NCBI RefSeq assembly: GCF_014219065.1
Contig: NZ_JACLGO010000001.1
Coordinates: 186,001-250,000, forward strand
Origin: Halopseudomonas xiamenensis
GTDB lineage: Bacteria > Pseudomonadota > Gammaproteobacteria > Pseudomonadales > Pseudomonadaceae
Direction of reading: 5' to 3'
Length of the DNA: 64,000 bases
Shown here piece by piece: positions 12,222 to 59,504 of this stretch. A program made the translations under genes and the position numbers. Each line of letters starts with the position of its first letter. Positions within the stretch are counted from its first letter, which is position 1. The notes beneath the pieces were generated by a model. It saw nothing but the letters and a program-made list of their open reading frames with translations. It was not told the origin of the DNA and made no database searches.

Positions 12222-12535
12222 AGGGGTGTGGCGCCCCGGTCCGCGTTCGGGCGCTACGCCTGCGGCCTCCGAGCCGCTGCGTCGTCGAGCAGGCGCTCGA
12301 CAACCCCAGGGCAGGCACTGTTGTGTCGGGGTGTAGCGCGCCTGCGCTACGCCTGCGGCTTCCGAACCGCTGCGTCGTCGAGCAGGCGCTCGACAACCCC
12401 AGGGGCAGGAACTGTGATTGGGGTGTAGCACCCCGATCTGCGTTCGGGCGCTACGCCTGCGGCCTCCGAGCCGCCGCGTCATCGAGTCGAGCGCGACCCG
12501 GCCCGATCGCGGTCCGAGGCGCTCGATAACCCGAT
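12222..12535. repeat. Array of three two-hairpin repeat units
   Basis: This fills the 373 bp gap between the convergent rluB and yciK genes. Three direct units start near 12224, 12330 and 12420. The first hairpin has a long-loop form in units 1 and 3 (loop containing CCCGGTCCGCGTTCGGG or similar) and a short loop in unit 2. The second hairpin is short in units 1 and 2, and in unit 3 is expanded with a CGACCCGGCCCGATCGCGG-type insert. No open frame here is convincing. Confidence 0.85.
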
Positions 12536-13279
12536 TCAGCCCCGCGCATCCAGCGCCTGGCCATTCACGCCCTTGCTGTCCGGCCCGAGCAGGTACAGGA
12601 ACACCGGCATGATCTGTGCCGGCTCCGGGTTCTTCTCCGGCTCCTCCGCCGGGTAGGCGGCCTTGCGCATGGCGGTGCGGGTGGCGCCGGGGTTGACGCT
12701 GTTGACGCGGATCTCGCTGGTGCCTTCCTGCTCGTCGGCCATCACCTGCATCAGGCCCTCGATGGCGAACTTGCTGACCGCATAGGGCCCCCAGTAGGCG
12801 CGTGCCTTGCGCCCGACGCTGGAGGAGACGAAGATCACCGAGGCGTCCGGGGCGGTGCGCAGCAGTGGCATCATTGCCTTGGTCAGGGCGAACGGGGCGT
12901 TCACGTTGACCTGCATCAGCTGTTGCCAGGCTTCGTTCTTGACGCTGTCGAGCAGGGTGCGCGGGCCGAGCAGGGCGGCATTGTGCACCAGCCCATCGAG
13001 CTTGCCGAAGGTGTCGAACAACTGGTCGGCCAGCTCGTCGTAGTCCTTCTCCGCCGCGGTTTCCAGGTTCAGCGGGCAGATCGCCGGCTGCGGATGGCCG
13101 GCTGCCTCGATCTCGTCGTAGACCGCCTCCAGCTTGCTCAGGGTGCGGCCCAGCAATACTACGCTGGCGCCGTGGGCGGCGCAGCTCAGGGCGCAGGCGC
13201 GGCCGATGCCGTCACCGGCGCCGGTGACCAGGATGACGCGACCTTTGAGCAGGTCCTGCGGGGCGCTGTAGTCAAACAT
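12536..13279 (-). CDS. yciK: YciK family short-chain oxidoreductase
   Basis: A 247-residue NAD(P)-dependent SDR. The cofactor motif is TGAGDGIGR, the NAG-like motif is VHNAALLG, and the catalytic residues lie in FVSSSVGRKARAYWGPYAVSKFA (Ser, Tyr, Lys). The substrate is unknown. The start at 13279 has AGGAGTT upstream and lies 8 bp inside the 3' end of mupP, so ubiG-mupP-yciK is a compact operon, as in P. aeruginosa. Confidence 0.9.
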   Translation of the reverse strand: MFDYSAPQDLLKGRVILVTGAGDGIGRACALSCAAHGASVVLLGRTLSKLEAVYDEIEAAGHPQPAICPLNLETAAEKDYDELADQLFDTFGKLDGLVHNAALLGPRTLLDSVKNEAWQQLMQVNVNAPFALTKAMMPLLRTAPDASVIFVSSSVGRKARAYWGPYAVSKFAIEGLMQVMADEQEGTSEIRVNSVNPGATRTAMRKAAYPAEEPEKNPEPAQIMPVFLYLLGPDSKGVNGQALDARG

Positions 13280-13952
13280 GGGATAACTCCTGTGTCCGTT
13301 GCTGCTCCAGCCAGGGGCGCAGGGCAGCGGCGTTCTCGATACTGTAGTTGGCATTCCACTGTTGCGGATCATCGCCGGCCGGCAGGTAGCCGTAAAGCGC
13401 GGCCACGGTACGCATGCCGGCGGCGCGCCCGGCCTGGATGTCGCGCAGATGATCGCCGACGAAGACGCTGCGGACCGGGTCCACGCCCATCTCGGCGCAG
13501 GCCTTGAGCAGCGGTTCCGGGTGTGGCTTGCCATGTTTGACCTGGTCCGGGCAGACCAGGCTGGCGCAACGCCCCGCCAGGCCGGTGGCCTCCAGCAGCG
13601 GGATGCTGAAACGACTCAGCTTGTTGGTTACCACGCCCCAGGGCAGCCCCTCGGCGTCCAGCCAGTCGAGCAGCTCGGGGATGCCGGGGAACGGCCGGGT
13701 GTGCAGCGCCAACTGGCGCTGGTAGCGCTCCAGGAAATCATCGCGCAGGGCGGCGAACTCGTCGTGCTCCGGGGTGATGGAGAAGGCGGCGCAGAGCATG
13801 CCGGCGGAGCCGTCGGATACCGTGGAGCGGATCAGCTGCAGCGACGAGTCCGCCAGGCCGCGGTCCTGACGCATGCTGCGGATGATCGCCAGGAAGTCAT
13901 CGACGGTATCCAGCAGGGTGCCATCCAGGTCGAACAGTACGCTGTCGAGCAT
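13272..13952 (-). CDS. mupP: N-acetylmuramic acid 6-phosphate phosphatase MupP (HAD family)
   Basis: A HAD phosphatase with motif I FDLDGTLLDTVDD, motif II VVTNK, motif III Lys in KHGKPHPEP and motif IV FVGDHLRDI. The position between ubiG and yciK is that of Pseudomonas MupP, which dephosphorylates MurNAc-6-P in the peptidoglycan recycling route that bypasses de novo UDP-MurNAc synthesis. A generic phosphoglycolate phosphatase (Gph) assignment would rest on similarity alone; context favours MupP. The start is ATG at 13952, two bases after the ubiG stop, with GGAG 7 bp upstream. Confidence 0.87.
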   Translation of the reverse strand: MLDSVLFDLDGTLLDTVDDFLAIIRSMRQDRGLADSSLQLIRSTVSDGSAGMLCAAFSITPEHDEFAALRDDFLERYQRQLALHTRPFPGIPELLDWLDAEGLPWGVVTNKLSRFSIPLLEATGLAGRCASLVCPDQVKHGKPHPEPLLKACAEMGVDPVRSVFVGDHLRDIQAGRAAGMRTVAALYGYLPAGDDPQQWNANYSIENAAALRPWLEQQRTQELSHV

Positions 13953-33727: not shown

Positions 33728-33768
33728 TTGATATGCGTCAAAGTGGCGCGGTAGGGAAGCGCGTAGTC
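33728..33768 (+). promoter_or_regulatory. ANR/DNR-dependent promoter of hemN
   Basis: TTGAT-ATGC-GTCAA at 33728-33741 matches the FNR/ANR/DNR box with one mismatch. A -10-like TAGTCT lies at 33763-33768, so the box centre would be about 41 bp upstream of a start near 33775: a class II activator position. Confidence 0.75.
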
Positions 33769-50152: not shown

Positions 50153-50273
50153 GTCTACTCCCCTTGATAGGTCTTGATATCTAACCTATCTCGTTGGCCG
50201 GGGAAAGCAAGTTGCCTGTTGCTTATCAGGCGCCGGATTGCCGGCAATGTCGGCGTTTTTCTTCAAGCCCGTC

Positions 50274-50582
50274 AAGCGTAGCGCCCGAACGCGGACCGGG
50301 GCGCTACACCCCCAGGGGTGCACCGTACGGGTGTCGGGTTGTCGAGCACCTCGGGCCGCGATTGGACCGGGTCACGTTGACCGGGCTGCGATCAGCTCGA
50401 CGACAGCGGCCAGTATCTTCAGGGCCGCTCGGCAGACTCGGCAAGGCGTAGCGCAGGGGCGCTACACCCCCAGGGGGGCGTCGTGCGAGTGTCGGGTTGT
50501 CGAGCCCCTGCTCGACGACGGCCAGCATCTTCAGGGCTGCCCGGCAGGCTTGGCAAGGCGTAGCGCGGGGCACTACACCCCC
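50274..50582. repeat. Two-hairpin repeat array between the DUF2789 and chemoreceptor genes
   Basis: Long hairpin 1 (50274-50314), very long hairpin 2 with the GGACCGGGTCACGTTGACC core (50335-50408), short hairpin 1 (50445-50472), short hairpin 2 (50492-50521) and short hairpin 1 with one mutated arm (50556-50582). It occupies most of the 457 bp gap, on the 3' side of the chemoreceptor gene. Confidence 0.88.
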
Positions 50583-50609
50583 AGAGGACTCCCGCCCGAG
50601 CACGCAGGC

Positions 50610-52499
50610 TCAGATACGGAAGCTGTCCACCAACTGCTTGAGCCGGGTGGTCTGGCGGTCGAGTTCGGAGCAGGCCTGCAGGGTCGATTGCAGGTTGTCC
50701 ACGCCCTGTTGGTTCAGGGTGTTGATCTCGGTGATGTCGACATTCAGCGACTCGATGACGTTGGTCTGCTCCTCGGTGGCGGCGGCCACCGACTGGTTCA
50801 TGGCATCGATCTCGCCGATTCGCCCGGTCACGCTGACCAGACGCTCGCCGGCCTGGTTGGCGATGCTCACGCTGTGTTCGCTTTCCTGCTGGCTCTCGGT
50901 CATGGCGTTGACCGAGTCACCGGCGTCGACCTGCAGCTCGGCGATCATCTGGTGGATTTCCTCGGCCGACACCTGGGTGCGGTGGGCCAGGTTGCGCACC
51001 TCGTCGGCCACCACGGCGAAGCCACGCCCGGCCTCACCGGCGCGGGCCGCTTCGATGGCGGCGTTCAGCGCCAGCAGGTTGGTCTGTTCGGAAATGCCGC
51101 GAATAACCTCGAGAATGTGGTTGATGTTGACGGTTTTCTGGCTCAGCGCCTCGATGCGTACGCAGGAATCGCTGATCTTTTCTGAAAGCTGCTGCATGGC
51201 GCGGATATTCTGCTCGACCACCTCGCGCCCGCCGTCTGCCTGTTGCCGCGCGTCGCTGGCCTGATGCGAGGCATGCGCGGCGTTGCTGGCGATTTCCTGG
51301 GCGGCGGCGCCCAGTTCGTTGATCGCTGCGGCGACGCTGTTGGTGCGCAGCGCCTGTTCATCGGAATTGGCCATGGACGAGTTCGAAGCGCTCAGTACCT
51401 GGGCGGCCACCGCATTGACCTGGGCCGTGGCCGAGGACACTTCGCTGATCGACGCATGGATACGCTCGACGAAGCGGTTGAAAGCACTGGCCAGCTCGCC
51501 GAACTCATCCCGGGAATCGACCGCCAGCCGGCGGGTCAGATCGCCTTCGCCCTCGGCTATGTTGGCCATGGCTTGGCCCATCGCGGTGAGCGGGCGCATC
51601 AGTACCCGGATCAGCAGGCCGAGCAGGAGGATGATGAACACCACCGACACCAGCACCGCCACCAAGGCGGAAGCGCGAAACTCCGACAGCGCCGAGTAGG
51701 CCTCGTTGCGGTCCACCAGGACGCCGATATGCCAATCGACCGACGGCAGACCGCGCACCGGTACGAAGGTCAGGATGCGCTCGACGCCGTCCAGCGTCAC
51801 GTCCTGCAGGTCGCGCGAGATGCTCAGGTTGTCGTTGGGGTACAGCTCGGCGAGGGTTTTCATCACCACGCGCTGGTCGGGGTGAACCAGTATCTTGCCG
51901 TTGCCATTGACCAGGAAGGCATAGCCCATACCGTCGAAGTCCTGGGCGTTGATCATGTCCACCAGCGTCTGCAGGCTCAGGTCGCCGCCGGCCACGCCAA
52001 TGGTCTGGCCGCTGCGCTGGACCGGCAGGGTAGCGGTGATCACCAGTTGGTTGGTGCCGGTATCCACATAGGGTTCGGTCAGGGTGGTGCCGTTGGCGGC
52101 AATCGCCGCCTGGTACCAGGGGCGCGGGCGTGGGTCGAAATCGTCCGGCAGCGGCTGCTCGGGGCGGACGATGAACTCACCGTCGCTACGACCGAAGAAG
52201 CTGTTGGTGAAGGTCGAGCGCAGCGCCGGTTGCGCCATCAGGGCGCCGATCGTGGGGGTGTCGTCCTGGCGGGCGACGGTCTGGGCGGTGTTTTCCAGCA
52301 GCAACAGGCGTCCGGCAATCCAGCTCTGGATATATTGACTGGTGGTGTCGCCGACATCGCCGAGGTAGTTGGTCAGGTTGGTGCGGATGAAGTTGCGCTG
52401 CAGGTAGTCGTTGTACAGCGTGAACATGGAGAAGGTCGCCACCACGACCAGCGAGGCGGCGAGCAGTATCTTGTGGCTGAACTTCAGATGATTGAGCAT
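50610..52499 (-). CDS. Methyl-accepting chemotaxis protein with dCache sensor domain
   Basis: A 629-residue chemoreceptor: helix 1 (about 8-28), a periplasmic double-Cache domain (about 30-275), helix 2 (about 280-302), HAMP, then a cytoplasmic signalling domain with the tip [39 protein letters not shown]. In the sensor, [15 protein letters not shown] and GVAGGDLSL resemble the amino-acid-binding dCache pattern of PctA-type receptors, so amino acids are a reasonable ligand guess. ATG at 52499 gives a normal N-terminus; the frame stays open upstream through the repeat. Confidence 0.92.
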
Positions 52500-52600
52500 G
52501 GGCGATCCCGGGGCCGGTTCAACTGGCCTCTCTATGACTTTGCAAGGTTTACTCCATATCGGCAGGTAAGCGGCAGACTTGAGCGGTGGGGGCGCGGGCT

Positions 52601-52841
52601 GGGGGTGTAGCCCCGGGCCGCGCCTGGCGGAGTTGAGGGAAGCGCCGGCGTGGCTGGCAGTCCACTGTCGTCGAGCGGGGGCTCGACAACCCGACATCCG
52701 CACGGTGTGCCCCTGGGGGTGTAGCGCCCCTGCGCTACGCCTGGCGTAGTTGAGGGGAAACGCTGGTGTGGCGGCAGTTAGCTGTCGTCGAGCTGATCGC
52801 AGCCCGGCCCGATTGCGGCCTGAGGCGCTAGACAACTCGGG
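52601..52841. repeat. Two-hairpin repeat array between the chemoreceptor gene and nrdG
   Basis: Decayed hairpin 1 (52601-52627), short hairpin 2 (52664-52693), short hairpin 1 (52716-52744) and a long hairpin 2 (52782-52841) whose loop carries CGATTGCGG/GATCGCAG words. It fills most of the 351 bp gap and abuts the 3' end of nrdG. Confidence 0.85.
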
Positions 52842-52850
52842 GTGGAGGCT

Positions 52851-53450
52851 TTAGCCGTGCAAACGCCCCTGCTGTATCACCACCGAACTCGCGCCCATCG
52901 CCAGCAGCCGCTGGCGCACCCACTGTGCATCGCTGTCATCCAGCCAGTCGGGGTGGGCGGTGATGCGGAACTGGTGGGGCACGCCGCTGGCCAGTACCAG
53001 TTCGGCGCTGTGCCAGGCGGCTTCGCCGCTGTCGCGGGTGCGGGTGATCAGATGGTAATCAGCTTGCCTGGCCTTCACGTCGAGGCCGATCCAGTCGATC
53101 AGTGGCAGCAGCCTTTCCAGCTTGCGCGGGTAGATGCCGGCGCTGTGCAGGCCGATCTTGAAGCCCATGTCCCGTACCTGTTCGATGGCCTGCGGCAACG
53201 CGGCCTGGAAGGTCGGCTCGCCGCCGGAAAACACCACCGCATCGAGCAGCCCGCGGCGGTTGTCGAGGAACTCGATTATCTGGCTCCAGGGTATCTCGCT
53301 GTCACCGCGTGCCGGCAGCAGATCGGGGTTGTGGCAGTACACACAGCGCCATGCGCAACCCTGGGTAAAGACCACCGCGGCGAGTTCGCCGGGGTAGTCG
53401 ATGCTGGTGAGGGGCACCAGGCCCCCCACCCGGAGCGTATCAGCAGCCAT
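52851..53450 (-). CDS. nrdG: Anaerobic ribonucleotide reductase activating enzyme
   Basis: A 199-residue radical SAM activase that generates the glycyl radical on class III reductase. The cluster motif is CAWRCVYCHNP, preceded by PLTSIDYPGELAAVVFTQG, with FSGGEPTFQ of the SAM site and GLDVKA. The start at ATG 53450 overlaps the end of the small glycyl-radical gene by 11 bp; the ribosome site is weak, which suggests coupling. It is the third gene of the nrdD operon. Confidence 0.92.
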   Translation of the reverse strand: MAADTLRVGGLVPLTSIDYPGELAAVVFTQGCAWRCVYCHNPDLLPARGDSEIPWSQIIEFLDNRRGLLDAVVFSGGEPTFQAALPQAIEQVRDMGFKIGLHSAGIYPRKLERLLPLIDWIGLDVKARQADYHLITRTRDSGEAAWHSAELVLASGVPHQFRITAHPDWLDDSDAQWVRQRLLAMGASSVVIQQGRLHG

Positions 53451-53613
53451 TGCTGGCTGTGGCCTGCGGCTGGAAGAACTGCCGCTCTTGGTGCTCCGAC
53501 TGCTTGCCGGGGTTCCAGGAGGACACTGGGCGGTGGTAGCCCATGACCCGGGTCCAGACCTCGCAACGTACGCGTTCATGGTCATGCAGAGTGGTGATGG
53601 CTTGCTTGTTCAT
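53440..53613 (-). CDS. Free-standing glycyl-radical domain of class III ribonucleotide reductase
   Basis: A 57-residue protein whose core CEVWTRVMGYHRPV and WNPGKQSEHQERQFF are the C-terminal glycyl-radical segment normally fused to NrdD; Gly25 (in RVMGY) is the predicted radical site. Its ATG overlaps the nrdD stop as ATGA (53610-53613) and has AAGGAG 7 bp upstream, inside the nrdD end, so it is built for coupled translation. It is therefore unlikely to be a chance frameshift product. It must associate with the NrdD body to complete the active site, much as GrcA supplies a spare domain to pyruvate formate-lyase. Confidence 0.85.
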   Translation of the reverse strand: MNKQAITTLHDHERVRCEVWTRVMGYHRPVSSWNPGKQSEHQERQFFQPQATASNGC

Positions 53614-55352
53614 GCTGTTTCTCCTTGGGTTTTGGCTTTTTGCTGCAGGATGTCCGCATCACACTTGGGGCAGAACTCGTGTTCGCCACTCAGATAACCG
53701 TGGTGCGGGCAGATGGAAAAGGTCGGGGTAATGGTCAGGTAGGGCAGCCGGTAGTTAGCCAGCGCCCGTTGTACCAGCCGTCGGCAGGCATCAGCACTGG
53801 CTAGCGGCTCGGCCATGTACAGGTGCAGCACGGTACCGCCGGTGTACTTCTGCTGCAACGGCTCCTGGCGCTGCAGTGCCTCGAACGGATCGCTGGTGAA
53901 ACCGACCGGCAGTTGCGACGAGTTGGTGTAATAGGGCTTGTCCGCCGTGCCGGCCTGCAGGATGTCGGGGAAGCGCTTGCGATCCTCCTTGGCGAAGCGG
54001 TAGGTGGTGCCCTCGGCCGGTGTGGCTTCGAGGTTGTACATGTGCCCGGTCTGCTCCTGGAATTCGGTCATGCGCCCGCGCACATGGTCCAGCAGGCGGA
54101 TGGCCATGGCATGACCCTCCGGATCGGTGATGTCCCGCGCGTTGTCGGTGAAGTTGCGGATCATCTCGTTGATGCCGTTGACGCCCAGGGTGGAGAAGTG
54201 GTTTCTCAGGGTGCCCAGGTAGCGCCTGGTATAGGGGAACAGCCCGGCATCCATATGCCGCTGGATCACCTCGCGCTTGAGTTCGAGGCTGTCACGGCCC
54301 AGTTCCAGCAACCGATCCAGCGCCTGCAGCAGGCCTACCTCATCACCCTTGTGCAGATAGCCCAGGCGCGCGCAGTTGACCGTCACCACGCCCAGCGATC
54401 CGGTCTGTTCCGCCGAGCCGAACAGCCCATTGCCGCGCTTGAGCAGCTCGCGCAGGTCCAGTTGCAGGCGGCAGCACATGGAGCGCACCATGTTCGGCTG
54501 CAGCTCCGAGTTGAGGAAGTTCTGAAAGTAGGGCAGGCCGTACTTCGCGGTCATGGCGAACAGTCGCTCGGCATTCTCGCTGTGCCAGGGGAAGTCGTGG
54601 GTGATGTTGTAGGTCGGGATCGGGAAGGTGAACACCCGCCCCTTGGCGTCGCCCTGGCTCATCACCTCGATATAGGCACGGTTGATCATGTCCATCTCCT
54701 CCTGCAGCTCGCCGTAGCAGAAGGGCATCTCCTCACCGCCGATCACCGGCACCTGCTCGCGCAGGTCCTCCGGGCAGACCCAGTCGAAGGTCAGGTTGGT
54801 GAAGGGCGTCTGGGTACCCCAGCGCGATGGGACGTTGAGGTTGTAGATCAGCTCCTGCATGTACTGGCGCACCTGCCGGTAGTCGAGCCGATCCTTGCGC
54901 ACGAAGGGCGCCATGTAGGTATCGAAGGAGCTGAACGCCTGGGCGCCGGCCCATTCGTTCTGCAGGGTGCCGAGGAAGTTGACGATCTGCCCTACAGCGC
55001 TGGACATATGCCTGGGCGGCGCCGACTCGATCTGCCCGGGAATGCCATTGAGTCCCTCGTTGAGCAGCGTGCGCAGCGACCAGCCGGCGCAGTAGCCGCT
55101 GAGCATGTCCAGGTCGTGGATATGGATATCGCCGTCGCGGTGGGCCTGGCCGATCTCAATCGGGTACACATGGCTGAGCCAGTAGTTGGCGATGATCTTG
55201 CCGGCACTGTTGAGAATCAGCCCACCCAGGGAGTAGCCCTGGTTGGCATTGGCATTGACCCGCCAGTCCTGGCGGTTCAGGTATTCATCGATGGTGCTGG
55301 CGACGTCCAGGTAGGTGCGGCCGGCCATACCGAAGGAAGTGGAAGCTGACAT
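53610..55352 (-). CDS. nrdD: Anaerobic ribonucleoside-triphosphate reductase, catalytic body (NrdD)
   Basis: A 580-residue class III reductase body. GYCAGWSLRTLL contains the first active-site Cys (Cys88) and MVRSMCCRLQLDL the second. YNITHDFPWHSENAERLF and VNCARLGYL are family segments. The C-terminus has the metal-binding ICPHHGYLSGEHEFCPKCD but then stops: the glycyl-radical segment is in the next gene. No N-terminal ATP-cone is present, and none is encoded upstream, so allosteric control differs from E. coli NrdD. ATG at 55352 has GAGG 7 bp upstream; a longer frame has no support. An ANR box controls it. Confidence 0.9.
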   Translation of the reverse strand: MSASTSFGMAGRTYLDVASTIDEYLNRQDWRVNANANQGYSLGGLILNSAGKIIANYWLSHVYPIEIGQAHRDGDIHIHDLDMLSGYCAGWSLRTLLNEGLNGIPGQIESAPPRHMSSAVGQIVNFLGTLQNEWAGAQAFSSFDTYMAPFVRKDRLDYRQVRQYMQELIYNLNVPSRWGTQTPFTNLTFDWVCPEDLREQVPVIGGEEMPFCYGELQEEMDMINRAYIEVMSQGDAKGRVFTFPIPTYNITHDFPWHSENAERLFAMTAKYGLPYFQNFLNSELQPNMVRSMCCRLQLDLRELLKRGNGLFGSAEQTGSLGVVTVNCARLGYLHKGDEVGLLQALDRLLELGRDSLELKREVIQRHMDAGLFPYTRRYLGTLRNHFSTLGVNGINEMIRNFTDNARDITDPEGHAMAIRLLDHVRGRMTEFQEQTGHMYNLEATPAEGTTYRFAKEDRKRFPDILQAGTADKPYYTNSSQLPVGFTSDPFEALQRQEPLQQKYTGGTVLHLYMAEPLASADACRRLVQRALANYRLPYLTITPTFSICPHHGYLSGEHEFCPKCDADILQQKAKTQGETA

Positions 55353-55422: not shown

Positions 55423-55464
55423 ACTATATGTGCCTGACCCTCGGTCATCTTTGACGAAGATCAA
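55423..55464 (-). promoter_or_regulatory. ANR/DNR-dependent promoter of nrdD
   Basis: TTGAC-GAAG-ATCAA at 55451-55464 is an FNR-type box with one mismatch. On the minus strand TATAGT (55423-55428) is a strong -10. The box centre lies 32 bp from the -10 centre, i.e. about -41.5 from a start near 55416. Confidence 0.8.
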
Positions 55465-55496: not shown

Positions 55497-55539
55497 TTGA
55501 TATTTGTCAAGTAATAATCATTCTCATAAGGCGCATACT
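55497..55539 (+). promoter_or_regulatory. ANR/DNR box, Fur-like box and -10 of the TonB receptor gene
   Basis: TTGAT-ATTT-GTCAA (55497-55510) is an ANR/DNR box. AATAATCATTCTC (55513-55525) matches 11 of 13 positions of the Fur core GATAATCATTATC. CATACT (55534-55539) is -10-like, 33 bp from the box centre. The order suggests activation under low oxygen or NO and repression by iron-loaded Fur. Confidence 0.7.
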
Positions 55540-55591: not shown

Positions 55592-57637
55592 ATGCCTTTT
55601 CAACCCAAACTCCTGGCTCTGGCCTGCCTGGCCCTGGGCAGTTGTGCCGCCTGGGCCGAGCAGCTGGAGCTGCAACCCACCGTTGTTACCGCCAAGGGCT
55701 ATGCAGCCGGTGCCCAGGACACGCCCCAGGCCATCGAGCTGTTGCAACCGCAGCCGGTCAGTGCCGAAGCCCTCGGCAGTCTGTTCCGTGGCGAGCCGGG
55801 GTTGGCGGTGCACAGCGATGGTGCCTGGGGGCAGAATCCAGTACTGCGTGGCCTGAAGAAGGAAAGCGTGGTGCTGATGGTCGATGGGGTGCGGGTCAAC
55901 TCTGCGCAACCCCAGGGCGCGCTGGCCTCCTTCAGTGACCTGGGCCTGGTGGAGCGGGTAGAAGTGGTCAAGGGGCCGGGCTCGGTGCTGTACGGCAGCG
56001 GCGCCATGGGCGGGGTGGTCAACGTGCTGACACCTCAGGCGAAATTCACTGACCAGCGCCGGCAGGGCGGCCGCTTCGGCGTCAGTGCCGGCAGCGTCGA
56101 CGATGCTCTCAGCGGCGCCCTGATACTGGAGGACTCCGGTCCGACCCATGGCCTGTTGGTCGGTGCTGCAGGCAGCAACGTGGATGATTACAAAAGTCCC
56201 GAGGGTACCGAGCAGGATACCGGTTACCGTTCCAACAGCCTGCTGCTCAAGTATAAGCAGAAGATCGCCGACGACTATGTGCTGCGCCTGAACCTGCAGC
56301 GCCATGATGACCGCGACGTCTGGTATCCCGGCTCGCGCAAGACCGCGCCGGCGGCCCAGGCTCACCTGGGCGAGATCACCATGCACTCGCCGAAGCAGAC
56401 CCGCGAGCTGTACTCCCTGGGGCTGGATGCGCCCTTGGGCTCGGGCACGCTGATGACCGAGGTCTATCGTCAGGAGGTCTACCGCGAGATCCGTGCCTGG
56501 TCATCCAACCTGCGCCGCAACTATGTGGAGAACGACGTCGATTTCACCACCCACGGCCTGCGCAGCAGCTGGCTAGCGGCGATCGGTGACAACCACCAGT
56601 TGACCCTGGGGGCTGAAGGCTGGCGCATGACAGCTGATCCGGAGCGCTACATGTCGCCATCACCGACCGGCGTGCGTCAGCTGAACAACCCGTTCGAGAA
56701 TGGCGAGATGACCTCACTCGGGGTCTTCGTGCAGGATGATTTCAGCATCGGCCAGACCCGCATCACCGCCGGGCTGCGTTATGACCGGGTCAGCGGCGAT
56801 GCCAGCCAGAAGGGCACCGGCCCGGCCGCCCAGACCAGCGGCCTGGGCAGCAGCGACAACAACCTGTCCTGGTCGCTGGGGGTGGTGCAGCCATTGACCG
56901 ACACGCTCAACGCCTACGCCAATATCGGCCAGGCCTACCGCTCGCCGGACATGCGCGAACGTTTCGAGGATGCCGCCCGCGGCGACGGCTACTATCACAT
57001 CGGCAACCCGAAACTGGATCCGGAACGCTCCACCAGTCTGGAGATCGGTCTCAAGGGCCGGGACGGCGCGCTCGCCTATCAGTTGGCGGCGTTCCATACT
57101 CGTATCGATGACTATATCGCCGGTCGGGTGATCGATGGCCAGGTGCAGCAGGGGCTGCCGGTCAAGCGCACCGAGAATGTCGACGAGGTCGAGATCTACG
57201 GTGTGGAGGGCGACCTGGACCTGCCGGTGGGCGCCTTGCTGCTGGATACCGGCTTCACCTGGCTGCGCGGCGAGAACAAACAGTACGACGAACCCCTGTA
57301 CCAGATGCCCGGCCACGAACTGCGCCTGGGCATCGGCCAGCCCGCCGAGCTGGGCCTGTCCTGGCGCCTGGGCGTGCGTGCTGTGGCCGAACAGGACCGC
57401 GTCGCCACCCGTTTCTCCGGCGGCAGCGAAGATGCCACCCCCGGCTACGCCGTAGTGGACGCGCGCCTGGGCTGGGGCTTCGGCGCCCTGGCCGGCCTGC
57501 AAACCGCCCGCGTGGATCTGCGCCTGAACAACCTGCTGGACAAGGACTACCATGAGCACCTGGCCGATGGTGTCAGCGGCTGGGAACTGTCTGCGCCGGG
57601 GCGGGGGGCGGTGTTGGCGGTGAGTGGGAGTTTCTGA
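55592..57637 (+). CDS. TonB-dependent outer-membrane receptor
   Basis: A 681-residue receptor: signal peptide (LLALACLALGSCAAWA), TonB-box-like TVVTAKG, plug domain with LFRGEPGLAVHSDGAWGQNPVLRGL, VVLMVDGVRVN and VEVVKGPGSVLYGSGAMGGVVNV, then a beta-barrel ending GRGAVLAVSGSF with terminal Phe. The ligand is not evident; haem, ferric siderophore or copper are options. The Fur-like site favours iron or haem, and the ANR box favours anaerobic use. A GGGAG ribosome site precedes ATG. Transcribed divergently from nrdD. Confidence 0.88.
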   Translation: MPFQPKLLALACLALGSCAAWAEQLELQPTVVTAKGYAAGAQDTPQAIELLQPQPVSAEALGSLFRGEPGLAVHSDGAWGQNPVLRGLKKESVVLMVDGVRVNSAQPQGALASFSDLGLVERVEVVKGPGSVLYGSGAMGGVVNVLTPQAKFTDQRRQGGRFGVSAGSVDDALSGALILEDSGPTHGLLVGAAGSNVDDYKSPEGTEQDTGYRSNSLLLKYKQKIADDYVLRLNLQRHDDRDVWYPGSRKTAPAAQAHLGEITMHSPKQTRELYSLGLDAPLGSGTLMTEVYRQEVYREIRAWSSNLRRNYVENDVDFTTHGLRSSWLAAIGDNHQLTLGAEGWRMTADPERYMSPSPTGVRQLNNPFENGEMTSLGVFVQDDFSIGQTRITAGLRYDRVSGDASQKGTGPAAQTSGLGSSDNNLSWSLGVVQPLTDTLNAYANIGQAYRSPDMRERFEDAARGDGYYHIGNPKLDPERSTSLEIGLKGRDGALAYQLAAFHTRIDDYIAGRVIDGQVQQGLPVKRTENVDEVEIYGVEGDLDLPVGALLLDTGFTWLRGENKQYDEPLYQMPGHELRLGIGQPAELGLSWRLGVRAVAEQDRVATRFSGGSEDATPGYAVVDARLGWGFGALAGLQTARVDLRLNNLLDKDYHEHLADGVSGWELSAPGRGAVLAVSGSF

Positions 57638-57686
57638 GCCGGGGCGCGGCAACCCATTGTGAGAGGGTTAATGTGGCAGGTAGCCC

Positions 57687-57953
57687 GCTGTCGTCGAGCG
57701 GGCGCTCGACAACCCGACCCCCGCACTGTGCTCCTCCTGGGGGTGTAGCGCGCCTGCGCTACGCCTTGCGGTGCTGGCCGGAGATGTTGGTGTGGCAGGT
57801 AGCCCGCTGTCGTCGAGCGGGCGCTCGACAACCCGATACCCACACGGTGCACTCCCTGGGGGTGTAGCGCCCCCGCGCTACGCCTGCGGTGCTGGCCGGA
57901 GATGTCGGTGTTGCAGGTTGCTCGCTGTCGTCGCGCGGGGGCGCGATAACCCT
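57687..57953. repeat. Two-hairpin repeat array between the TonB receptor and second norR
   Basis: Short hairpin 2 at 57687-57716, hairpin 1 at 57740-57766, hairpin 2 at 57806-57835, hairpin 1 at 57859-57884 and a mutated hairpin 2 at 57924-57953. The unit period is 119 bp, with GTGTGGCAGGTAGCCCGC-type spacer sequence conserved between units. It fills the 319 bp convergent gap. Confidence 0.9.
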
Positions 57954-57956
57954 GGG

Positions 57957-59504
57957 TCAAATCCCCAGCCGCTTCACCAGGCGGGAAAAGTTACCGCGGT
58001 CCACGCCCAGCTCCTGGGCGGCGCGGCTCTGGTTGTTGTCGTTGCGTTCCAGCGCCTGGCGGATCAGTTGTACCTGGAACCGCTCGGTGGCTTCGCGTAG
58101 CGTCTGGCCGATAGTTGGCTGGGGCAGGTCGAGGCTGCCTGACTCCACTACCGAGGCGGCAACATCCACCGGCGAGCCTCCCAGGTCCAGTAACTCCGCG
58201 GTCAGGGTCAGCAGGCGCCGGCCGCCATCCTGTCCTGCTTGAGCCTTGAGCACCGCTCGGCTGATCAGGTGTTCCAGTTCGCGCACATTGCCCGGCCAGG
58301 GGTAGGCCAGCAGCGCCTCGCGGGCGCTGGTATCCAGTCGCAGGCCGCGCAGGCCGATACGACGGCGGTTCTGTTCGAGAAAGTGCCCGGCCAGCAGCAA
58401 CACATCCTTGTGCCGCTCGCGCAGACTGGGCACGGCAATCGGGTAGACACCCAGGCGATGATAGAGGTCGGCGCGGAAGCGCCCCTCGGCCACTTCACGG
58501 TGCAGATCCCGGTTGCTCGCGGCGATGATGCGCACATCCACCTGATGATGACTGTCACTGCCCAGGCGCTGCACCTCACCGCTCTGCAGCGCGCGCAGCA
58601 GCTTGGGTTGCACGGTCAGCGGCAGTTCGCCGACCTCATCGAGGAACAGCGTGCCGCCATGGGCCAGCTCGAACTTGCCGACACGGCTCTGCACCGCCCC
58701 GGAAAACGCCCCGCGGGTATGACCGAACAGCTCGCTCTCCACCAGGTTCTCCGGCAGCGCCGCGCAGTTCAGATAGATCAGCGGCGCACGGGCGCGGTTG
58801 GACAACGCATGCACGCGCCGCGCCACCAGCTCCTTGCCGACCCCGGTCTCGCCGGTGATCAGTACCGCCAGGTCGGAGCGGGCGACCATGTCGATTTCCT
58901 GCTGTAATCGCGCCATGGCCCGGCTGCGGCCGATCAGTTCCTGCTGCCCGTCGGCCACCAGTGCCTGGGTCATCGCCTGGTGATGTTCGGTGCGGCTCTG
59001 CAACTGGTTGGTCAGCTCGGTAATGCGGATCACCGCCTCGCTCAGCCGAGCCAGATAGCGCAACTGGCCGGGGTCGATCCGGTCGAAGGCGTTGGCGTTG
59101 AGCGCGTCCAGGGTCAGCACGCCCCAGGGCATGCCCTGCAGATACAGGGCGATGCCGAGACAGTCATGCACATGCAGGTCGCCCTCGACCGCATGCAACA
59201 GGCCGTCGTAGGGATCGGGCAGCGGTGAGTCGGCGGCAAAGCGCACCGGTTCGTGACTGAGCAGGATCTTCGCCAGGCGCGGGTGGTCATCCACCACGAA
59301 ATGCCGGCCCAGGGTATCGGTACTCAGGCCATCCACCGCCAGCGGGATCAGCTCGGTGCCGCGCAACTGCAGCAGCGCCGTGGCATCGCAGGGCAGCATC
59401 TGGCGTACGGTGGCCAGCAACTGGGCGAAGCGTTCGGCAGGTGCCATGTCGCGGGCCAGGTCGGTGATCACGGCCAGCAGCGGGTAGGCGTCGTTTGCTG
59501 TCAT
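57957..59504 (-). CDS. NorR/FhpR-type sigma-54 activator (second copy)
   Basis: A 515-residue paralogue of the norR product at 43.4 kb. GAF domain (about 15-165), AAA+ domain with Walker [17 protein letters not shown], sigma-54 loop GAFSGA and Walker [12 protein letters not shown], then a Fis-type helix-turn-helix [24 protein letters not shown]. The recognition helix differs from the first copy ([10 protein letters not shown] versus DASNLHKLAR). It is divergent from hmp, the arrangement of P. aeruginosa fhpR-fhp. Its start codon overlaps the most distal operator. Confidence 0.9.

Follow-up and report, generated by a model that had tools for sequence, protein, structure and literature searches.

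In the textbook account, a class III ribonucleotide reductase (RNR) carries its radical on the main chain. The NrdDs described from E. coli, T4, T. maritima and P. copri have the glycyl-radical domain on the same chain (PMC11226230; papers are cited here by PMC number on the basis of excerpts of their text), and in Pseudomonas a class II RNR is encoded as two consecutive open reading frames (ORFs), NrdJa and NrdJb (PMC4009431, PMC9669993). For pyruvate formate-lyase (PFL), a small protein can complete a body without the glycine loop, namely Y06I in T4 and YfiD in E. coli (PMC8683613). Here we describe an nrdD locus of Halopseudomonas xiamenensis, located in a window (the whole stretch analysed) of 64,000 nucleotides from contig NZ_JACLGO010000001.1 (assembly GCF_014219065.1, positions 186,001 to 250,000), in which the glycyl-radical segment is encoded as a separate protein of 57 amino acids. 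We propose, with a probability of about 0.92, that the locus encodes an obligate two-polypeptide class III (anaerobic) RNR with a replaceable radical subunit. The locus resembles the known NrdDs in family, fold, metal-site residues, the MCCR of the finger loop and an NrdG2-type partner, and differs from them in the separate radical protein. With NrdJa/NrdJb it has in common the bacterial family and the arrangement as two consecutive ORFs; these are class II proteins with another cofactor, whereas the body in the window matched NRDD and NF006126, which sets it apart from the B12-dependent class II.

One NrdD family on two reading frames

The body gene was located at positions 53610..55352 of the window (minus strand), starting with an ATG at 55352 and encoding 580 amino acids, as identified from the ORF list with its translations and by profile searches. 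The product ends with CPKCDADILQQKAKTQGETA followed by TGA, shortly past the CPKCD site, and the radical glycine motif (RxxGY) was absent from its C-terminus and present on the separate protein, encoded at 53440..53613 (minus strand). This small protein contains CEVWTRVMGYHRPV and GKQSEH, with Cys17 (codon at 53563-53565) before EVW and the predicted radical glycine, Gly25 (codon at 53539..53541, minus strand), in an RVMGY inside the NRDD profile match. The Pfam family NRDD (PF13597) matched the body over profile positions 2-528 (E 8.3e-175) and the small protein only over positions 532-562 (E 4.1e-9, 36.1 bits against a cut-off of 26.2); the matched stretches are complementary, and the two ORFs therefore hold the two parts of one family. 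This bears out the first-pass annotation, made from the letters alone, which had read nrdD as a 580-residue body ending after CPKCD plus a separate 57-residue glycyl-radical protein. The class III RNR member is thus the pair of body and small protein, not a single chain. With the exception of NRDD, no Pfam family matched the small protein at E ≤ 0.1, the PFL-type glycine radical domain being absent, and no NCBIfam model specific to such a protein matched; the NCBIfam matches obtained were the ends of whole-NrdD models and fell below their cut-offs. In public tables the small protein is labelled 'nrdD: anaerobic ribonucleoside-triphosphate reductase' or, in Paracoccus ferrooxidans, 'hypothetical protein'.

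The body scored 1046.6 bits against NF006126 (cut-off 548), with a match beginning at position 93 or 96, so that the ATP-cone is missing, as had been noted at first pass. It has the catalytic barrel, a finger loop with SMCCR (C293/C294), Cys88, and C548/H551/C561/C564; going by NrdD structures, Cys88 is the putative reductive cysteine and the latter four residues are putative metal ligands. In the alignment of 113 split bodies, C293 and C294 were present in all 113, C88 in 111 (2 gaps), and C548, H551, C561 and C564 in 112 each (1 gap). The NrdD of P. aeruginosa, with a length of 675 amino acids, would fit an ATP-cone plus a body of 580 residues.

The body gene, the small gene and nrdG form overlapping cistrons. 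Stop and start of the first two overlap in an ATGA (53610..53613, minus strand), and a ribosome-binding site, AAGGAG (53621..53626, minus strand, position counted by eye), lies 7 nt before the ATG of the small gene, within the last codons of the body; both elements had been pointed out in the first reading and are present in the sequence. The gene nrdG (52851..53450, minus strand, 199 amino acids) most likely starts at the ATG at 53450, a start picked by eye, which gives an 11-nt overlap with the small gene. Its product matched TIGR02495 with 200 bits against a cut-off of 131 (the query carrying one extra codon at the start), which assigns it to NrdG2, so that a radical-SAM (S-adenosylmethionine) activase adjoins the split nrdD, as in a class III RNR.

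When the whole genome was searched with NRDD, no match was found beyond the body and the small gene of the window, so that a fused copy in reserve is lacking; the class I/II RNR large-subunit family gave two matches in this genome. The radical motif was invariant in ten aligned small proteins, and the radical glycine was kept in 176 of the 177 aligned host rows, with one gap. The ratio of nonsynonymous to synonymous polymorphism (pN/pS) of the small gene was 0.11-0.24 for the six pairs among four copies of the genus (first 52 codons). As judged by such sequence comparison, the small gene is under purifying selection and is not a chance ORF.

Distribution of the split and radical segments in viruses

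In relatives, 14 matches were found in 58 genomes and 11 of them were split, the other three being a fused NrdD of another type (L012) and two unrelated stretches (G017 and G028). Within the genus, the body was present in 9/37 genomes and the small gene in the same 9; the chance of an identical set is 8e-9 on the assumption of independent genomes, which does not hold. A draw of 298 genomes of the family gave 112 with a match at E ≤ 1e-100, 110 of them above the cut-off; the 60 regions opened comprised 59 split and 1 fused, the remaining 40/112 genomes being known from profile match rows only. Together with nine loci of the genus and those of G219, G419 and G569, 71 of the 72 Pseudomonadaceae loci examined were split, the reverse of the outcome (most relatives fused) that had been named as speaking against the split when a search of this family was first suggested. 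In the draws at class and phylum level, which have genomes in common with each other and with the family draw, 19/229 and 16/398 genomes matched, the former above the cut-off; the 18 class members besides the window were 15 split and 3 fused, and those of the phylum 13 split (one detached) and 3 fused.

The split is thus wider than had been supposed. Among named genomes, the best 80 loci were 79 split and one solitary, in a set selected for similarity to the small protein, which favours split forms; their titles were mostly of beta- and gammaproteobacteria, with a few metagenome-assembled genomes labelled Verrucomicrobiota, Omnitrophota, Elusimicrobia or Thermoflexus. A plasmid search matched 29 records; 12 of these and, in addition, a virus record were examined. 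Annotation as body, small gene and activase was found in C. necator H16, Sulfuricurvum (Campylobacterota), Shinella and Paracoccus ferrooxidans; C. metallidurans CH34 and P. denitrificans were split by sequence (no gene table); plasmids of Thiothrix and Bradyrhizobium had the small gene and the activase in an incomplete table and were scored split by the junction script. The A. vinosum plasmid had a solitary small gene within a 7 kb stretch, and Acidiphilium, Actinomyces and Geoalkalibacter were fused. The genome paper of C. metallidurans lists NrdDG as Rmet_5137 and Rmet_5139 (PMC2864759), and the number between them is probably the small gene.

Radical segments standing alone in viruses had not been foreseen in the first-pass annotation. 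When IMG/VR was searched with the small proteins, 169 relatives were obtained, and no NrdD body was found in the flanks of the best 80 of these (L210-L289), nor with a broader body profile. Thirty whole records (16-108 kb) were picked from the 80, larger contigs being preferred, and in these the radical segment was the sole NRDD match; NrdG2 and another RNR large subunit were found in 0/30 of these records, which, being viral, may be fragments. A second search with segments of the fused type gave 414 relatives, the best 80 consisting of 52 fused, 27 without a body and 1 partial. All 27 whole records (loci in L394-L449), that is, the loci already classed as without a body, contained nothing of NrdD but the segment, G963 having two copies. 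Taken together, 57/57 whole records tested, chosen from loci without a nearby body, hold the radical piece alone; the viral loci include repeat copies of the same virus, and the sets of 80, 30 and 27 are not independent. We had expected the solitary viral copies to belong to the split type alone; an exclusive pairing with split hosts is unsupported, as 27/80 in the fused-type search also had no body.

At least one neighbour gene matched phage families in 12 of the 13 contigs tested, including terminase (L210), portal (L271), head-tail (L212, L214) and tail (L237, L255, L257) genes as well as integrase (L284), DNA polymerase (L226), helicase (L260), transposition (L417) and replication initiation (L404) genes; for L243, the single neighbour gene tested had no phage-family match. 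PHROG 4132, whose function is listed as unknown, matched the solitary viral proteins, which indicates a likely function for this viral family. Of the viral contigs with the body type of the window, 62 of the best 80 (out of 140) were fused and 14 split, with 4 unclear. A search of 50,697 records of cultured phages yielded just two weak matches; the evidence from viruses consequently comes from IMG/VR contigs that are metagenomic or, in a few cases, derived from genomes. It was also noticed that the solitary copy L024, from a bacterial bin, has RecT-like and RNR genes nearby and so may likewise be of viral origin, and that in the ANMV-1 virus of an uncultured archaeon (KP703175.1, L208 2680-3114) a 145-residue ORF annotated as anaerobic RNR consists of cysteine pairs and a glycyl-radical segment only. 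Some viral fused NrdDs (L306-L308, L310-L312, L314, L317, L319-L321, L323-L328) have a thioredoxin/glutaredoxin-like tail after the radical domain (by eye, mostly CPNCK or CPKCK), perhaps a built-in reductant.

With confidence only a little above even, we favour the view that the glycyl radical of class III RNR sits on a movable cartridge that can be exchanged: a large clade, mainly of proteobacteria, would make the enzyme without this cartridge and supply it as a separate 6-kDa subunit, and many phages and other microbial viruses would bring the cartridge alone, to restart the host's anaerobic RNR, or to take it over, when this enzyme is oxygen-damaged or under-supplied, which would make the cartridge a second, RNR-directed class of spare part beside YfiD/Y06I. 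Alternatively, the viral copies might be decoys that occupy the host body and halt host synthesis of deoxyribonucleoside triphosphates. Records with neither NrdG2 nor an RNR large subunit point to a protein acting with or on host proteins, and the motif alone is unable to tell help from block; on the other hand, the radical glycine, needless for a decoy, was kept in 80 of the 81 aligned viral solitary rows (one gap), and the T4 precedent, Y06I, is a helper (PMC8683613). We consider the decoy explanation unlikely.

The proposed enzyme and other explanations of the split

In the proposed two-subunit enzyme, the body would supply the site for ribonucleoside triphosphates (NTPs), the finger-loop cysteines and the metal site, and the small protein, co-translated with it, would supply the glycyl-radical loop that forms the C-terminus of an ordinary NrdD. 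The small protein would dock by the metal site and place its RVMGY loop into the barrel, where NrdG2 and S-adenosylmethionine would generate, within the complex, a radical on Gly25; this would then move to a finger-loop cysteine, and NTPs would be reduced. As the oxygen-sensitive residue is on the 6-kDa part, oxygen would destroy that part alone, and a fresh copy could replace it. Activation of YfiD was undetected until the cleaved body was present (PMC8683613), and by analogy activation of the small protein is expected only in complex with the body. The proposal is supported by the anatomy of the genes, their conservation and joint occurrence, purifying selection on the small gene, its detachment from the body in one genome, a re-fusion, and a proxy chain with a compatible fold.

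The proxy used for AlphaFold was the locus L083 of a relative, whose body and small gene share a frame, read through its stop as one chain, with an alignment of 68 sequences, 50 of which were fused viral NrdDs. The model had a mean pLDDT (predicted local distance difference test) of 89.8 and a pTM (predicted template modelling score) of 0.91; the pLDDT was 87-93 for residues 581-620 of the small part, 71 for the linker, 72 for residues 621-630 and 40 for the tail. An earlier job with 20 sequences had given a pLDDT under 50 for the radical loop (601-638). VIA-align placed residues 2-624 of the model onto 91-735 of the P. copri NrdD (Z 35.3, root-mean-square deviation 2.5, 547 aligned), a range reaching beyond Gly711 in its radical domain (676-739; PMC11226230). 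In this modelled read-through chain, the small part appears to fit the place of the glycyl-radical domain.

A different role for the small protein would be that of a repair part only, the body using another radical source in normal turnover. Its occurrence alone in virus records and on a stretch of plasmid agrees with a part that can travel alone, like YfiD, but the body is without a glycine loop of its own and the genome offers no further NRDD match; moreover, we know of no other radical source for NrdD. We therefore attach very little weight to this possibility.

Equally improbable, in our judgement, is a single protein made by programmed frameshifting or stop read-through over the junction. 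The overlap of merely 4 nt in the window and twenty junctions, among those listed, that are in frame with a single stop would be compatible with it. However, in 176 split junctions the frame offsets were nearly equal (52/66/58), and the spacing from start to stop ranged from -41 to +483 nt (median 32). The start of the small gene was an ATG in 175/176, and a Shine-Dalgarno match of at least 5 nt was found for 150/176 small genes against 6.3% of 3429 random ATGs, a contrast inflated by the choice of the best-scoring start for the genes and not for the random ATGs. One in-frame linker contained 7 stops. In the genome G583, the small gene (13144-13398), followed by nrdG2 (12444-13139), is 9 kb apart from the body (L202 1997-4042). 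Known duplicates were removed from the 176, although a few genomes remain twice (e.g. G051 as L005 and L132); four loci with a motif variant (L099, L119, L133 and L161) and L202 (no start kept) had been dropped by the script before the count, and of these L099, L119 and L133 were classed as split, with the Cys before E[VI]W present by eye. The conservation of the split despite changing frame, spacing and, in G583, location supports two genes and not a frameshift, as far as sequences can tell, in agreement with what had been read from the overlap at first. Damage or assembly error leaving a dead class III enzyme, which one genome alone could not exclude and for which fused relatives might be cited, is negligibly probable given that nearly all family loci examined show the same split, with purifying selection on the small gene and conserved active-site residues.

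Fusion and split were compared in a FastTree phylogeny of 123 bodies rooted on two distant NrdDs, in which G583 was included twice (L126, L202). It revealed a mostly split clade of 118 with a sister of three fused members (L204, L106, L107). The fused G911 adjoins a split sister (support 0.98) deep among split Pseudomonadaceae, and by its position in this tree is a re-fusion, whereas L100, L105, L135 and L203, fused and with weak backbone support, may either have been re-fused or represent older fused forms. Split members of the genus had the ATP-cone in three cases (G002, G021, G034) and lacked it in six, so that loss of the cone is unrelated to the split and a separate event; calling of the cone by regular expression was unreliable on truncated loci and was discarded.

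Two residues were considered as marks of the split. Asp after the CPxC pair was present in 112/113 cellular split bodies (one gap), the eight fused ones having Gly, Ala or a gap, and it was rejected as a general mark because Ala or Glu can occupy this position in viral split bodies. The Cys before E[VI]W was present in 176/176 split small proteins counted and in 77/81 viral solitary rows, and the same position in fused viral relatives was Thr in 29/63 rows, a gap in 25 and Cys in 4; it was dropped as a marker of a separate chain because the second set of viral solitary copies often has Thr there.

Several points weigh against the two-subunit enzyme. The physical complex, activation by NrdG2 and exchange after damage are all steps that we infer. 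A one-chain proxy modelled with mostly fused homologues does not show that free chains associate, and the range from VIA-align gives the first and last aligned residues only. Five fused members lie inside the mostly split clade, in addition to the three of the sister clade. Finally, the small frame of L083 (3962-4162, Candidatus Thiothrix singaporensis) is without an ATG between the body stop and the motif, which also speaks for read-through; a TTG start, an error and read-through are options for this frame.

Upstream of nrdD, the box search identified an Anr/Dnr (FNR)-type box, TTGACGAAGATCAA, at 55451..55464, and a second one, TTGATATTTGTCAA, at 55497..55510, between nrdD and the divergent gene at 55592 (neither box assigned to a strand); this gene is TonB-receptor-like, as judged by eye alone. 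FNR-type boxes numbered 3 in the window against 0.02 expected, the third, TTGATATGCGTCAA, being located at 33728-33741, far from nrdD. The regulator acting on these boxes is probably Anr/Dnr. The two boxes upstream of nrdD are in keeping with the control of nrdDG by Dnr in P. aeruginosa (PMC5645315). Elsewhere in the window (50238-52835 and 57547-57960), GALHPQG- and ARSTTAG-like strings recur by eye in ORF translations of both strands, which suggests a dispersed intergenic repeat.

Comparison with known split and spare-part systems

In the excerpts of the open-access literature covered, split class I/II RNRs and broken phage nrdD genes are described, and no split-off class III glycyl-radical domain; key older papers lie outside this scope and may hold an earlier mention, and public annotation already displays the two ORFs. 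What the present analysis adds is the placement of the radical residue on a separate peptide in a large bacterial group that includes the family of the window and C. necator H16. This placement suggests inactivity of constructs that contain only the body, and it offers a small substrate for studying activation by NrdG. Pieces of nrdD have been described in phages, in six cases among 128 phage genomes with RNR genes; these are due to an intron or, in phiAS4, to a breakage whose cause is unknown and, within the excerpted text, do not involve a conserved radical subunit (PMC3653736).

The closest parallel is to YfiD/GrcA and the T4 protein Y06I, in which a small glycyl-radical-loop protein likewise completes a body without a loop and of which a phage version exists (PMC8683613). 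As described there, only YfiD and Y06I have been validated as spare parts, and parts for other glycyl radical enzymes may exist; a separate radical peptide in RNR makes this question directly testable. The known spare parts, of about 14 kDa, repair an oxygen-cleaved PFL that is normally whole, whereas in the split NrdD the body is made loopless and the part that completes it would be an NrdD-type 57-mer.

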